This document shows positions 1,966 to 50,541 of a stretch of DNA of 64,000 nucleotides, in pieces (the first letter of the stretch is position 1; every line of letters begins with the position of its first letter). Source of the stretch: Brevundimonas sp. MYb52 (GTDB taxonomy: Bacteria; Pseudomonadota; Alphaproteobacteria; Caulobacterales; Caulobacteraceae); NCBI RefSeq assembly GCF_002979535.1, contig NZ_PCPB01000001.1:248001-312000 (forward strand), written 5' to 3'. The translations under genes and the position numbers were made by a program. The notes beneath the pieces were generated by a model. That model searched no databases. It saw only the letters and a list, made by a program, of their open reading frames with translations, and had not been told where the DNA came from.

Positions 1966-2657
1966 GCCTGCTGTTCCAACCGCAAGCGCCCGTGCTTGCC
2001 CCGACCAACACCGGGGACGAATTCCCGGTCCGCCGCATCTTCTGCGTCGGCCGTAACTACGCCGCCCACGCCCGCGAAATGGGCCGCGACCCGGACCGTG
2101 AACCGCCCTTCTTCTTCACCGCCTGGGCCGAGACGGTGGTGCTGGACGGGACGACCATCGCCTATCCGTCCAAGACCGAGAACTTCCACTATGAGGCCGA
2201 GCTGGTCGTCGCCATCGGCAAGGGCGGTCGCAACATCGCCGCCCGGGACGCGCTGGACCACGTCTGGGGCTACGCCACCGGCCTGGACATGACGCGCCGC
2301 GACCTGCAGCTGGAAGCCCGCGCCCAGGGTCGTCCGTGGGACACCGGCAAGAACGTCGAGCAGTCGTCGCCGCTGGGCCTGATCCACAAGGCGGGCGAGG
2401 GCTTTGATCCCGAACACGGCAAGATCGAGCTGACCGTCAACGGCGAGGTCAAGCAGACGGCGGATCTGGCGGACCTGATCTGGCCGGTGGCGGACATCGT
2501 CGCCTATCTGTCGGGTCTGTGGGAGATCCAGCCCGGCGACCTGATCTACACCGGCACCCCCGCCGGCGTCGGCGCGGTGGTTCCTGGCGACGCCATGACC
2601 GTGACCATCGACGGCCTGACCCCGCTTAACATCAAGGTCGGCCCGCCCGCCGCCTGA
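1962..2657 (+). CDS. nagK: Fumarylpyruvate hydrolase (FAH superfamily)
   Basis: 231 residues of the fumarylacetoacetase superfamily. Family signatures visible are RRIFCVGRNYAAHAREM near the N terminus, PPFFFT, the metal-site stretch HYEAELVVAIG, and the C-terminal IYTGTPAGVGAV. The enzyme splits fumarylpyruvate to fumarate and pyruvate, the last step of the GSH-dependent gentisate route. The start is the ATG at 1962 overlapping the dioxygenase stop; the longer frame from 1860 would run inside nagI. A related acylpyruvase activity is the main alternative, but the maleylpyruvate isomerase gene nearby supports this name. Confidence 0.9.
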   Translation: MSLLFQPQAPVLAPTNTGDEFPVRRIFCVGRNYAAHAREMGRDPDREPPFFFTAWAETVVLDGTTIAYPSKTENFHYEAELVVAIGKGGRNIAARDALDHVWGYATGLDMTRRDLQLEARAQGRPWDTGKNVEQSSPLGLIHKAGEGFDPEHGKIELTVNGEVKQTADLADLIWPVADIVAYLSGLWEIQPGDLIYTGTPAGVGAVVPGDAMTVTIDGLTPLNIKVGPPAA

Positions 2658-2729
2658 TCCCTTTTCACACGCATCATCAACACAGGGAGAGGCGCGCGAC
2701 AGACGCGCCCTCCCAGGAGGACGACACAT

Positions 2730-4064
2730 ATGGCAGCCATGGGTGAGGGGGGCGGAAACGCCGTCATCGACCGGGCCAAATTCGGCCCGCTACAGTTCGG
2801 CGTCACGGCGCTGTGCTTCATCATCGCCATGCTCGACGGCTTCGACACCCAGTCGATCGCCTTCGTCGCGCCCAAGATCGCCGAGGACTGGGGTCTGGCC
2901 CCGTCGGCGTTCGGCCCGATCTTCGCCATCGGCCTTCTGGGCCTGACGGTCGGCGCCTTCACCCTGAGCCCGGCGGCGGACAAGTTCGGTCGCAAGACCA
3001 TCATCCTGATCTCGACCTTCATCTTCGGCCTGTTCGCCCTGCTGACGGCCTTCTCGACCTCGATGAACGAACTGCTGATCTATCGTTTCATCACCGGGGT
3101 CGGCCTGGGCGCCGCCATGCCTAACATCATCGCCCTGACCAGCGAATACGGCCCGGCCCGCCTGCGCGCGACCCTGGTGACGGTCATGTTCTGCGGCTTC
3201 CCGCTGGGCTCGACCATCGGCGGCCTGGTTTCGACCTGGCTGATCGCCACCTGGGACTGGCACTCGGTCTTCGTCGTCGGCGGCGTCCTGCCGCTGCTGC
3301 TGCTGCCGGTGCTCTATTTCATGCTGCCGGAATCGGTGCGCTTCATGGTCGCCAAGGGCGCGCCGGAGCACAAGATCGCCCCCATCGTGAAGAAGATCGA
3401 CGCCGACGCCTCGGTCAGCGACTTCATCGCCGGCCTGAAGCACGAGCAGACCTCGGCGGCCAAGGGCTTTTCGGTCTTCCAGCTGTTCCGTGAAGGCCGC
3501 ACGCCGGTGACCCTGCTGCTCTGGGTCGCCTTCTTCATGAACCTGCTGGTCATGTACTTCCTGGTGAACTGGCTGCCGACCCTGCTGAAGGGCGCCGGTC
3601 TGCCGCTCAGCCTGGCCATCCTGTCCACCGCCACCTTGAACCTCGGCGGCGTCGTCGGCGCCATCGTCCTGGGGCGGATGATCGACAAGATCAGCCCCTA
3701 CATCGTCCTGGGTTCGGCCTATGCCGCCTCGGCCGCCTTCATCGCCCTGCTGGCCTTTGGCGGCGCCAATCTGACGGTTCTGCTGCTCGGCGCGGCCCTG
3801 TCCGGCTTCGGCGTCGTCGGCGCCCAAATCGGCTGTAACGCCCTGACGGCGGCGGTCTATCCGACCGCTATCCGCGCCACGGGCGTGGGCTGGGCCCTGG
3901 GCGTCGGCCGCATCGGCGCCATCGTCGGTCCCCTGGTCGGCGGTGTGCTGCTGGCCGCCGGCTGGAGCCCGCAGAACCTGATCCTGCTGGCCGTCATCCC
4001 CGCCGTGATCGCCTCGATCGCGGTCTTCACCCTCGGCGGCGTGCGCCGTCGCGCCGGAGTCTGA
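2730..4064 (+). CDS. MFS aromatic acid:H+ symporter (AAHS family)
   Basis: 444 residues with about twelve hydrophobic segments. The first carries LDGFDTQSIAFVAPKIA, the substrate-binding helix signature of PcaK/BenK/GenK-type aromatic acid importers. The loop DKFGRKTII after segment 2 is the MFS motif A. A clear Shine-Dalgarno (AGGAGG, 2715-2720) lies nine bases before the ATG. Its place between nagK and nagL suggests it imports salicylate, gentisate or a related acid across the inner membrane. The exact substrate cannot be read from the sequence. Confidence 0.88.
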   Translation: MAAMGEGGGNAVIDRAKFGPLQFGVTALCFIIAMLDGFDTQSIAFVAPKIAEDWGLAPSAFGPIFAIGLLGLTVGAFTLSPAADKFGRKTIILISTFIFGLFALLTAFSTSMNELLIYRFITGVGLGAAMPNIIALTSEYGPARLRATLVTVMFCGFPLGSTIGGLVSTWLIATWDWHSVFVVGGVLPLLLLPVLYFMLPESVRFMVAKGAPEHKIAPIVKKIDADASVSDFIAGLKHEQTSAAKGFSVFQLFREGRTPVTLLLWVAFFMNLLVMYFLVNWLPTLLKGAGLPLSLAILSTATLNLGGVVGAIVLGRMIDKISPYIVLGSAYAASAAFIALLAFGGANLTVLLLGAALSGFGVVGAQIGCNALTAAVYPTAIRATGVGWALGVGRIGAIVGPLVGGVLLAAGWSPQNLILLAVIPAVIASIAVFTLGGVRRRAGV

Positions 4065-4753: not shown

Positions 4754-6199
4754 ATGACTATCGCTGCTGCGGCCGCCGCCGCATTGCTTTCGCACGCCCC
4801 CATGCCCGCCGACGCCGAGGCGCCGATCCAGACCGCGCCCGCCGCCGGTCTGGCCGCCGCGCCTGCTCCGGCCGCGCCGCCGCCGTTCAAGCTGATCAAC
4901 CACGACGAGAGCTATGCCTATCTGGCCGACCCGGCCAAGCGTACCTCGACCTGGTCGAAGTTTAAATATGTCCCGGTCGGCGGCGAGGGCAGCCCGGTCT
5001 GGGCCAGCTTCGGCGGCGAACTGCGCTTCCGCGCCGAGCACCGCGACAACGAACGCTTCGGTCGCGGTCCTCAGGACACCGGCGGCGACTTCCAGACCCG
5101 CGCCCGCCTGTGGGGCGAATTGAACCTGGGCTCGTCTCTGCGCGCCTTCGTCGACGTTCAGGACGCCCGCACCTCGGGCCTGGCCAGCGGCGAGCCGGTG
5201 ATCGAGGAAAGCCGCACCGACCTGCATCAGGCCTTCCTTGAGGCCAAGACCGGTCTGGGCGCGGGCACGTTGCGCGTCCGCGCCGGCCGTCAGGAGTTCG
5301 GCCAGGGCGGCTTCCGCCTGTTCGATATGCGCGAGGGCGCCAATGCCCGCGTGGCCCTGGACATGGTCCGGGTCATGTATGACAGCCCGACCGGCTGGAG
5401 CGGCGGCGCCTTCGCCGGCTATGCCCTGCGCGAAGGCAAGGCCTCGTGGGATGACGCCACCAACTTCGACTATCGCCTCTATGGCGCGACGGCCGCGAAG
5501 ACCCTGGGGCAGGGGGCGACGGCGCCCAAGCTGGAGCTGCTCTACGCCAACACCGACCGGCTCGTGACGCCGTTCGATGGTCAGGTAGCGGGCCGCGACG
5601 ATCGCGACACCCTGTCGGTGCGCCTGTCGGGCAAGGTCGCGCCCTGGGACTATGAGGTCGAGGCGGTGAAGCAGTGGGGCTCGTTCCGCGACCTCGACAT
5701 TGACGCCTGGTTCTTCTCCGCCGTCGGCGGCCGCACCTTCTCAAGCGTGAAGTGGTCGCCGCGCGTGGCCGTGCGTCTGGACGTCGGCTCCGGCGACAAG
5801 GACCCGAACGACTGCAAGTTGAACAGTTTCAACCCCCTGTTCCCGCAACCGGCGGCCCTGCGCACCGATCTGGGCTTCGCCAACATGGTGCTGCTGCAAC
5901 CCGAGGTGACGGTGCGCCCGACGCCCAAGCTGACCCTGGGCGCCAACACCGCCGGCCTGTGGCGTCAGAGCAAGGATGATGGCCTCTATGCCCTGTCCGG
6001 CATGGTCCTGCGCGGCGCCAATGAGGGGCAGTCGTCCTACGTTGGCTGGCGCACCGGCGTCTTCGCCCGCTACGCCCTGACGCCCCATGTCTCGCTGATG
6101 GGCGTGGCCAACTACACCAAGGCCGGCGACTTCCTGAAGGAGACTGGCACGGCCGAGGACCTGTCCTACCTCGGGACCTTCCTGACCTTCAGGTTCTGA
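4754..6199 (+). CDS. Outer-membrane channel, alginate-export-family beta barrel
   Basis: 481 residues from the ATG at 4754, which follows GGAGG (4743-4747). The N terminus is an Ala-rich export signal plus an Ala/Pro linker, followed by alternating amphipathic strands and a C-terminal aromatic residue (TFLTFRF), typical of outer-membrane barrels. The stretch with QFRAEHRDNERFG-like features and later GRQEFGQGGFRLFD resembles the alginate-export (AlgE-like) porin family. As the last gene of the operon it probably admits the aromatic substrate through the outer membrane. The longer frame from 4592 overlaps nagL and is not used. Confidence 0.75.
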   Translation: MTIAAAAAAALLSHAPMPADAEAPIQTAPAAGLAAAPAPAAPPPFKLINHDESYAYLADPAKRTSTWSKFKYVPVGGEGSPVWASFGGELRFRAEHRDNERFGRGPQDTGGDFQTRARLWGELNLGSSLRAFVDVQDARTSGLASGEPVIEESRTDLHQAFLEAKTGLGAGTLRVRAGRQEFGQGGFRLFDMREGANARVALDMVRVMYDSPTGWSGGAFAGYALREGKASWDDATNFDYRLYGATAAKTLGQGATAPKLELLYANTDRLVTPFDGQVAGRDDRDTLSVRLSGKVAPWDYEVEAVKQWGSFRDLDIDAWFFSAVGGRTFSSVKWSPRVAVRLDVGSGDKDPNDCKLNSFNPLFPQPAALRTDLGFANMVLLQPEVTVRPTPKLTLGANTAGLWRQSKDDGLYALSGMVLRGANEGQSSYVGWRTGVFARYALTPHVSLMGVANYTKAGDFLKETGTAEDLSYLGTFLTFRF

Positions 6200-34051: not shown

Positions 34052-34510
34052 CTAGGCGAGACGTTTGCGTCTCTGCAGCAAAAGCGCGGCGCCGCCCGCC
34101 AGGCTCGCTCCGAACAGGATCATGGCCCACTCGGACAAGGTCGGGACCGCCTCGGGCCGCAGGACGAGATGCAGCGTGCTTTCCTTCTGGATGCTGTAGT
34201 CGGCCAGGGTTCGCCCGTCCTCAAGCTGTTTTCCAGCGAAGATCAGTCGTTGTCGTTCCGGAGGAATGCCCTCCTTGTCCTGGATCTTCTCTTTCACCTG
34301 CTGGATCGAATCGCTTCCCTCGACCTCCAGCGTGATCGTCTTGCCCGCCAGGGTCTTGACGAAGATCTGCATGGCGAACGCCGGCGGGGCCAGGCTGAGG
34401 CTCAAAAACATCGCCAGAAGCATCGGGGCGAACTTGGGCAAAGCTGAACTCCGGCGCTGGCGAGAATGAGGGGGCGGGGTCTCACTATACGAACCAAAGA
34501 ACGGCGTCAT
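34052..34510 (-). CDS. Secreted ubiquitin with IPTL-CTERM sorting tail
   Basis: 152 residues from the ATG at 34510. Residues 1-46 form an export signal (core [16 protein letters not shown]); the predicted cut after AFA exposes Met1 of ubiquitin. Residues 47-118 match eukaryotic ubiquitin residues 1-72 at 62 positions; all seven lysines (6, 11, 27, 29, 33, 48, 63), the Leu8/Ile44/Val70/His68 surface and Arg72 are kept. The tail LRGG is absent. Instead come [14 protein letters not shown], a membrane segment and RRKR, an IPTL-CTERM sorting signal. A TTG at 34441 with GGAG upstream is another plausible start and gives a shorter signal ([12 protein letters not shown]). No ubiquitin-activating, conjugating or deconjugating gene is nearby. 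Known parallel: the secreted ubiquitin of Bacteroides fragilis. Function is unknown. Confidence 0.95.
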
Positions 34511-34600: not shown

Positions 34601-34675
34601 TGGTGGACGCGACAGGGATTGAACCTGTGACCCCCTCGGTGTGAACGAGGTGCTCTCCCGCTGAGCTACGCGTCC
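34601..34675 (-). tRNA. tRNA-Val (anticodon CAC)
   Basis: A complete cloverleaf on the minus strand: acceptor GGACGCG/CGCGTCC, D stem GCTC/GAGC, anticodon stem CCTCG/CGAGG with loop TTCACAC (anticodon CAC, reading GTG valine codons), and T arm ACAGG-TTCAATC-CCTGT. The discriminator A and the CCA end (34601-34603) are encoded. Its 3' end faces the ubiquitin gene. Confidence 0.97.
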
Positions 34676-49611: not shown

Positions 49612-50364
49612 TCAGGCGGTCTGACGACGACGGTGCAGGTTCAGCGCCGCGCCGCCGGCCAGCAGGACGCCCAGCAGGATCATCGCCCATTCCGACAGGG
49701 TCGGCACCGGCGCGGGCGGCGAGGGCGGGGTGAGCGACATGGTCACGGCGCTGGCCTGAGCCTGAGACGCCCCCTCGGCAGGAGTGACTGTTGTCTGCAA
49801 GCATCCGGCGCCCGGCGTATTGGTGGGCGCATTGCTGACGGTGTGTCGCGTCAGGCATCGCGCATTGTTGTCGACCGAAACCGCCGGGTGGACCGAGGTG
49901 AAATAGATCGTCGCGACACGGGCCTGCACATCGTTCGACGGCACAGCCGAGACATTGAACGGCGCGCCGTTCGTCTTGTCGAACTTGAACTCAAAGGCCG
50001 TAATGACGCCGTTGGCGTCGGTGCTGACATTGGCGAAGTTGATGACCATGTCCGGGTCGGGAATGCCGGCGTTCAGCAGGGTGTAGGTGTTCTGGCCGTC
50101 GCTGAGCTGGAAATCGTCGATCATGTGGCCGACGTCGTCAGTCTGGACGTTGAGGTCAGGGTCCAGCGAGCCGAAGAAGGTGATCGTCCCGCTCAGACGT
50201 TGCCCAGACGCATAGGTCTTGCACACGCCCACCGGGCAGGCCGTGGGGTCGATGGTCGAGGTATAGGGCGCGCTTTGCACATAATAGACGACGGGGCCTG
50301 CCGCTGCCGCCTGGGTCGCCCAAAGGCTCAACGCCGCGACGGCGCATCCGATCAACTGCTTCAT
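49612..50364 (-). CDS. IPTL-CTERM surface protein
   Basis: 250 residues from the ATG at 50364 (GGGGGAAG upstream). A signal peptide ends QAAAAGP. The central domain is a beta-rich secreted module with Asn/Thr and two Cys (ACPVGVCKTY). The C terminus is [11 protein letters not shown], a hydrophobic segment LAGGAAL and RRR, a sorting signal of the IPTL-CTERM class thought to be handled by exosortase H. The tail is nearly identical to that of the ubiquitin protein at 34052. The body is not recognised. Confidence 0.83.
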   Translation of the reverse strand: MKQLIGCAVAALSLWATQAAAAGPVVYYVQSAPYTSTIDPTACPVGVCKTYASGQRLSGTITFFGSLDPDLNVQTDDVGHMIDDFQLSDGQNTYTLLNAGIPDPDMVINFANVSTDANGVITAFEFKFDKTNGAPFNVSAVPSNDVQARVATIYFTSVHPAVSVDNNARCLTRHTVSNAPTNTPGAGCLQTTVTPAEGASQAQASAVTMSLTPPSPPAPVPTLSEWAMILLGVLLAGGAALNLHRRRQTA

Positions 50365-50541
50365 GGTTCTTCCCCCTGGTTTGGCGGCCACCATAAAGCT
50401 TGACGTTATCTGACGCACTCAAATTGTAACATTGGTATCTTGAAGCGGGCGTCCAGTGGCCGGCCACTAGATGTTGTGGTGTTCGGCGGCGCGGCCTAGA
50501 TAGGGGCGCCGTTTTCGCTCCAGCCTTCGGGATGCCCGCCA

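Follow-up and report, generated by a model that had tools for sequence, protein, structure and literature searches.

A predicted surface-anchored ubiquitin in Brevundimonas, with related genes in phage contigs and in scattered bacterial phyla

Ubiquitin is a textbook eukaryote-only protein, and a single exported bacterial case, BfUbb of Bacteroides fragilis, is established. Two further known systems bear comparison with the gene described here: bacterial ubiquitin-conjugation operons of the Bil type, which have adjacent E1, E2 or deubiquitinase genes, and phage morons, which are lysogenic conversion genes. The gene was found in Brevundimonas sp. MYb52, and its product is like BfUbb in being eukaryote-type, in having no terminal Gly-Gly and in carrying a signal peptide whose cut, predicted here, falls exactly before Met1 (for BfUbb, according to PMC5705921 and PMC3352274). 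The first-pass annotation had named BfUbb as its established parallel, and this is upheld. BfUbb, however, is free, secreted and about 63% identical to human ubiquitin, whereas the Brevundimonas protein is 86% identical over residues 1-72, has a 34-residue sorting tail of the IPTL-CTERM type instead of being a free 76-residue protein, and has related copies in phage contigs. An IPTL-CTERM tail is reported, in PMC8671808, for the S-layer protein of Methylomirabilis lanthanidiphila. No report of an anchored or phage-borne bacterial ubiquitin was found in the literature searched, outside which lie most subscription papers and preprints.

The window, that is, the whole stretch of DNA analysed, is 64,000 nucleotides long. 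The open reading frame given for 34052..34510 exists, but it lies on the minus strand (34510..34052) and encodes 152 amino acids from the first ATG; a plus-strand gene at these positions was ruled out by a stop inside that reading. The ATG at 34510 was also set aside as a start. The translation start is most likely the TTG at 34441, giving a product of 129 amino acids, since it is there that related genes align and since the upstream ATG is lacking in L001, the locus of Brevundimonas genome G092. The codon aligned with this TTG is TTG in L001 and L090, and GTG in the phage copies and in L002, the copy of Brevundimonas bullata (genome G010); CGGAG also precedes the TTG of L001. A 23-residue signal peptide, ubiquitin residues 1-72 and a 34-residue tail make up the predicted layout of the protein, and the features are as follows.

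34052..34441, minus strand: coding sequence of the exported ubiquitin, 129 amino acids, TTG start (152 amino acids from the in-frame upstream ATG at 34510)
34449..34453, minus strand: likely ribosome-binding site CGGAG, 7 nt before the TTG (sequence read directly)
34373..34441, minus strand: predicted signal peptide, 23 codons, ending in A-F-A directly before Met1 (pattern-based)
34157..34372, minus strand: ubiquitin domain, residues 1-72, 62 of 72 identical to human (profile, PDB, predicted fold)
34055..34156, minus strand: 34-residue tail, predicted IPTL-CTERM sorting signal (VPTLSEW, hydrophobic helix, arginine-rich end)
34601..34675, minus strand: tRNA-Val (cac), its 3' end 160 bp upstream of the ubiquitin start

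A recount of residues 47-118 (in the 152-residue numbering) against human ubiquitin 1-72 again gave 62 identities of 72, with differences exactly at positions 9, 19, 22, 24, 25, 28, 39, 40, 57 and 60 and with all seven lysines and L8, I44 and V70 present, as the first-pass annotation had it. The protein matches PF00240, the Pfam ubiquitin family, with an E-value of 1e-30 (105.8 bits; cut-off 25.4), and single-ubiquitin chains of the PDB with an E-value of about 1e-36; this likeness is not due to chance. Its AlphaFold2 model (mean pLDDT 84, 11 sequences) consists of a beta-grasp domain and a C-terminal helix, and a Foldseek comparison of the model with solved ubiquitins gave 5yt6_A with an rmsd of 0.5 and a TM-score of 0.99 by target length. 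The predicted cut of the signal peptide, with AFA directly before MQIF, would leave Met1 as in ubiquitin, again by pattern. At the other end of the domain, LVLR is followed by a ten-residue stretch and not by LRGG. Because the Gly-Gly end needed for conjugation is absent, the window ubiquitin should not be conjugated, and a conjugatable modifier was ruled out at the level of sequence in favour of a ubiquitin domain as such. No E1, E2 or deubiquitinase genes were recognised by eye among the neighbouring open reading frames. Export, the predicted cut before Met1, a most likely eukaryotic or eukaryotic-virus descent and the BfUbb parallel stood from the earlier interpretation, but the sorting tail, the exosortase, the lost conjugating C-terminus, the related fusions and the phage link were absent from it.

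The C-terminus consists of a ten-residue stretch, a hydrophobic stretch and RRKRLA, and is recognised as an IPTL-CTERM signal both by PF18203 (E-value = 2e-6; 28 bits, cut-off 20.8) and by NCBIfam TIGR04174 (31.2 bits, cut-off 20.5). The source genome contains six IPTL-CTERM matches over the cut-off, the window ubiquitin among them, and one XrtH exosortase (TIGR04177, 132.2 bits, cut-off 86). A second IPTL-CTERM protein, of 268 amino acids and with no other Pfam match, is encoded within the window at 49612-50418. In both the tail and the presence of XrtH in the genome the window protein is like known IPTL-CTERM/XrtH proteins, and it differs from the others in that its cargo is ubiquitin and almost nothing else.

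XrtH was found in 15 of 131 Brevundimonas genomes (14 over the cut-off), and in all four carriers of the anchored ubiquitin it is over the cut-off (hypergeometric probability 8.5e-5, kinship ignored), the result for L001 being that of G092. The XrtH test covered the genomes of 25 of the 80 loci kept from the survey described below: L002, seven IPTL-tailed, four with unclear short tails and 13 other-tailed, hand-chosen. Outside the genus (L002 being left out), XrtH is over the cut-off in five of the seven IPTL-tailed genomes (L024, L033, L058, L064 and L072) and in none of the 13 other-tailed ones (Fisher p = 1.4e-3). The two IPTL-tailed exceptions are L010, with an XrtH match of 82.7 bits, just below the cut-off, and L070, without XrtH; two of the other-tailed genomes (L044 and L078) have XrtH matches far below the cut-off, and one of the four with unclear short tails (L077) has XrtH. 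Because of this co-occurrence in and outside the genus, IPTL tail and XrtH tend to travel together. The predicted location of the window ubiquitin is the cell surface, to which it would be attached. Two other genomes are of separate note: in G101 the query matched sixteen times, always in the IPTL tail, and XrtH gave no match, and in G026 XrtH is present without any match to the query.

The anchored form occurs in four of the 131 Brevundimonas genomes, namely the source strain, the B. bullata isolate G010, G037 and G092, so that the outcome feared by the first-pass annotation, that no related genome would carry the gene, did not arise. Its statement that codon use is GC-rich like that of the neighbours stands with a correction: the GC content of the gene is 0.618 (GC3 0.82), and that of the surroundings is mostly slightly higher, at 0.65-0.69. 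The near-identity to eukaryotic ubiquitin and the contaminant look of other survey loci (L042, a polyubiquitin, and L040, a bare 79 amino acids) are what could make one think of contamination or an assembly artefact. This is hardly credible, because the same gene type is carried by four genomes of the genus, an isolate among them, and by three metagenomic viral contigs, and because the order of ubiquitin and next gene is kept in L001; the bacterial signal, the sorting tail and the GC3 value also speak against it.

Synteny of the window with G009, G015, G112, G097 and G010 breaks off, in every one of the five, where the tRNA-Val next to the ubiquitin gene has its 3' end. In L001, the ubiquitin gene is closely preceded by a 46-bp exact copy of the tRNA-Val end and by a gene for a tyrosine integrase (PF13356, PF00589), and the copy in G037 begins 139 bp after a tRNA-Leu; no tRNA was found in the ubiquitin stretch of B. 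bullata. These tRNA positions, the tRNA-end copy and the integrase are marks of integrating elements, and the tRNA-Val beside the window gene is an integration hotspot. A comparison of the window with 17 proteins of the ubiquitin-bearing phage contigs and of L001, a narrow set, gave no match, so by this set the window copy has no recognisable prophage around it, and the tRNA-Val site remains.

Three IMG/VR contigs of uncultivated viruses from different metagenomes (L158, L159 and L160) carry the same signal-ubiquitin-IPTL gene. These copies are 73% identical to L001 over residues 1-126, and the L158 copy has a tail that scores above the Pfam IPTL cut-off. Terminase genes lie 0.5-0.7 kb downstream on the same strand in all three, with small open reading frames in the gap; PHROGs profiles matched small and large subunits in L158 and L159 and the large one only in L160 (E-value = 1e-15 to 1e-76). 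Beyond the terminase, L158 has portal, head protease and major head protein genes, and L159 has portal and virion structural protein genes. A 2.7-kb stretch with the ubiquitin gene in it is 99.7% identical between L158 and L159, after which the two have different head modules; because of this shared stretch they are counted as one event for the ubiquitin gene. The terminase of the L158 type is 88-89% identical to genes of Brevundimonas G029 and G101. G101 is colinear with L158 through the terminase, portal and head genes, and G029 matches the upstream gene and the terminase. In neither is there a ubiquitin gene between the upstream gene and the terminase, and no ubiquitin-domain match was found anywhere in the two genomes. 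The viral copies thus lie among phage structural genes, upstream of the terminase, and are absent from the colinear stretches, as is characteristic of morons, but they differ from these in a cargo undescribed in the literature searched, and the window copy lies outside a recognisable prophage.

Other viral contigs carry exported ubiquitins of different build. L174, on the same contig as L165, joins ubiquitin to a barrel tail (autotransporter match of 24.6 bits, just below the cut-off of 26) and is accompanied by portal, terminase and ParB/DNA methylase genes. In L175, minor-tail and tape-measure genes flank a gene for ubiquitin with a barrel tail (63.4 bits), and L171 (IMGVR_UViG_3300021559_000195) has a signal-ubiquitin-LRGG gene on a contig with tail genes. 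The latter contig, which has tail-fibre genes, also encodes a cyclophilin-type peptidyl-prolyl isomerase (PF00160) about 1.8 kb from the ubiquitin, the two genes spanning 2474-3007 and 4811-5134; BfUbb reportedly acts on a peptidyl-prolyl isomerase. A search of INPHARED phages gave no match. Because of the integration marks and the phage copies, we infer phage delivery with later loss of the rest; since the window lacks phage-protein matches, the delivery of its own copy is read from its position and its relatives. The gene is likely an accessory gene spread by phages.

As to the origin of the sequence, the claim of a transfer from a eukaryote holds in a wider form, in that the likeliest source of the exported ubiquitin is a eukaryote or a eukaryotic virus. 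Among the matches listed (the best 120 of about 8000 in each of the protein and 72-residue searches, for the greater part ubiquitins from eukaryotes and metagenomes), the nearest one outside the bacteria is a repeat of the Hokovirus HKV1 polyubiquitin (P0005), tied with the metagenomic P0003. This repeat is identical to L001 at 70 of 72 residues and to the window domain at 67, and human ubiquitin at 64 and 62, respectively; the repeat and L001 have P19G, T22S, E24Q, N25Q, A28Q and S57A in common. Unlike the bacterial gene, that of Hokovirus encodes a giant-virus polyubiquitin with LRGG joints and no bacterial sorting tail. BfUbb is reported to be nearest to an insect poxvirus gene (PMC3352274). 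In the tree of 72 columns, the window falls in a supported set of six (100/86), whose other members are L001, Cohnella L003 and three of the units taken from the protein-search matches, and the supported branches force at least five label changes, the rows labelled eukaryotic being human ubiquitin and 40 of the 178 units from the query matches. Because 60 of the 118 inner branches are open, the donor and the number of origins are not fixed by the tree, and viral descent of the bacterial ubiquitins is a lead only.

Of the 217 loci obtained by scanning 84,980 species genomes, 80 were retained for analysis. Their usual layout is a signal peptide, then ubiquitin, then a surface module, and named isolates with exported ubiquitin belong at least to Pseudomonadota, Bacillota, Verrucomicrobiota, Bacteroidota and Actinomycetota; many of the kept loci come from metagenome bins, for which the phylum assignment may be mistaken (those of L017, L020 and L065 seem doubtful). 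PF00240 matched in only two of 397 Pseudomonadota genomes, the source genome and one barely above the cut-off, so the gene is rare. Among the 68 tails of at least 30 residues (nine of 77 being shorter), 16 matched autotransporter, nine IPTL-CTERM, eight SLH and five outer-membrane barrel models (E-value of at most 0.01; one tail may match two classes). Exported ubiquitins, as recognised from these predicted signals, are rare, scattered over bacterial phyla and joined to at least three kinds of surface anchor.

A hydrophobic stretch precedes the ubiquitin in 71 of 78 open reading frames, Met1 is kept in 75 of 78, and between 56 and 71 of the 72 residues are those of human ubiquitin (median 65; 78 frames). 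The -3/-1 rule for signal peptidase is satisfied exactly before Met1 in 69 of the 73 frames with an N-terminal extension, whereas the shifts from +1 to +5 gave none and the best other shift 33; four of the 73 contain the exact 16-residue word that was one of the six locus-search patterns. Gly-Gly at 75-76 is present in five of 77 frames. L040 is still within the N-terminal, identity and Gly-Gly counts, whereas the site counts given below include L003 and L011 and exclude L042 and L040 as likely contamination.

Several neighbours and distant relatives were noted in the same survey. Strongly diverged exported ubiquitin-like proteins are encoded on the minus strand in Brevundimonas G121 (L092, 49% identity to the query) and G097 (L093, 30%; scored too low to enter the kept set), both with a signal peptide and without a sorting tail. 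A plasmid search gave three records: H1, a ubiquitin of a Ruminococcus albus plasmid (82%), and H2 and H3, diverged ubiquitin domains (44% and 41%) of Pseudoalteromonas shioyasakiensis records in the plasmid collection, in features annotated as Ig-like domain-containing protein and tandem-95 repeat protein. In neighbourhood clustering of the ubiquitin loci, the largest cluster comprises 29 loci. A family of 330-residue proteins occurs near the exported-ubiquitin gene in seven of the 80 neighbourhoods (L058:6819-7811, L072:6890-7882, L020:426-1433, L075:2861-3856, L027:3609-4595, L017:200-1186 and L044:9243-10238), adjoining it in six and lying about 1.5 kb off in L044. It had no Pfam match (two members searched) and no meaningful NCBIfam match (seven members), and a model of its fold (pLDDT 87.5) found its matches among SET methyltransferases (Rubisco LSMT 1mlv, E-value = 1.4e-6; SETD3; SETD6). 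By this model, the family would be a SET-like enzyme paired with exported ubiquitin; the source genome gave no match to it in a search made without a positive control.

Substitution rates indicate that the ubiquitin domain is under strong purifying selection. The dN/dS of the window domain is 0.062 against L001 (five non-synonymous and 18 synonymous differences), 0.073 against L090 (dS 1.7), both of them chromosomal relatives, and 0.099 against the phage copy; in the pair with L001 it is about 0.17 for the tail and about 0.7 for the signal peptide. Pairs with the B. bullata copy, which has lost H68 and V70, gave about 0.2 (0.19-0.25). Of twelve pairs in other lineages, nine gave 0.02-0.09, two were saturated in dS, and one gave 0.56 on three changes. 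Compared with 178 eukaryote-type units, which were taken from the best 120 of about 8000 protein matches and so are a biased set that includes metagenomic entries, the bacterial domains are freer at R42, V70, L71, R72, K48 and Q49, and conserved at least as much at M1 and Q2; R42, L71 and R72 take 7.6% of the substitutions in bacteria and 0.3% in the eukaryote-type units. Loss of conjugation with the fold and some binding kept would give such a pattern. L8, I44 and V70 are all retained in 60 of 81 domains and all seven lysines in 61. With residue groups that were not computed from a structure, the mean retention of the I44 patch is 0.92, as against about 0.90 for the whole domain, and so the patch is not clearly more conserved.

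The reading that we prefer, with a probability of about 0.5, is that of a phage-delivered, surface-anchored, non-conjugatable near-copy of ubiquitin which works by display and binding, not by tagging. The gene would have arrived by a temperate phage. Signal peptidase would cut before Met1 and leave the native N-terminus of ubiquitin; XrtH would process the IPTL-CTERM tail, leaving ubiquitin 1-72 and a short linker at the cell surface; and the displayed domain would engage ubiquitin-recognising proteins. As a partner, our first choice would be a ubiquitin-binding protein or receptor of a eukaryote, either a grazing protist or a host, with a bacterial competitor as the main rival. The eukaryotic partner is preferred because a domain near eukaryotic ubiquitin is kept under selection with the E1-contact residues and the Gly-Gly set free. 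As the I44 patch is not conspicuously conserved, the choice rests on near-identity and selection, and it is weakened by this unremarkable patch, by the variation at V70, R42, K48 and Q49, and by L002, with its loss of H68 and V70 and its dN/dS of about 0.2.

Decoy, toxin and adhesin, as put forward by the first-pass annotation, are candidate roles. A free secreted toxin was set aside, since the protein carries a sorting tail; because of this anchor, a freely diffusing toxin is less likely. A contact-dependent antibacterial protein of the BfUbb kind, which from the surface of its producer would bind and disable a protein of related bacteria, is rather improbable in our view, although the patchy presence in four of 131 genomes would suit a gene of strain competition, and although BfUbb, according to PMC5705921, is exported, cut before Met1, devoid of the terminal glycine and active against some conspecific strains. 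An anchor is unlike a secreted toxin, and the domain, with 62 of 72 residues identical, resembles eukaryotic ubiquitin much more than BfUbb does (63%; PMC3352274). No immunity gene was recognised by eye among the open reading frames beside the gene, but BfUbb producers need none, according to PMC5705921.

If, on the other hand, ubiquitin served only as a stable, fast-folding N-terminal domain, a structural cap with no binding partner, one would expect it to follow directly on the signal peptide and to precede anchors of widely differing kinds, as it typically does here, and the conservation of the I44 patch at no more than the domain average and the existence of diverged exported forms would also be in keeping. 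However, near-identity to eukaryotic ubiquitin is needless for a cap, dN/dS is 0.06-0.07 at dS up to 1.7, and of the 106 residues that the predicted cut would leave, 72 are ubiquitin, so that little remains to be capped; we consider this role unlikely. Still less probable is superinfection exclusion, by which a phage-borne surface protein masks or competes for the receptor of other phages. The accessory position near the terminase genes in the phage contigs and the surface anchor would suit it, but PADLOC gave no match, no receptor is known, and selection maintains chromosomal copies that have no recognisable prophage around them.

The reading of a displayed, non-conjugatable ubiquitin can be carried further, though we do so only as a tentative and somewhat doubtful extension: temperate phages might carry ubiquitin cargo taken from protists or their giant viruses and coat their lysogens with it, native at its N-terminus and non-conjugatable, via the exosortase of the host, as a mimic against eukaryotes that recognise ubiquitin, grazing protists for example, and the same trick might have been repeated with autotransporter, S-layer and other anchors across the phyla. 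In short, from this one locus one arrives at a whole class of exported ubiquitins, scattered in occurrence, with at least three kinds of anchor and in some cases inside phage genomes, and the question that it raises can be put directly to the test in a genus that grows in culture. Should the display be real, it would be a new interface across domains of life, in which bacteria, phages and eukaryotes share one of the most conserved proteins.
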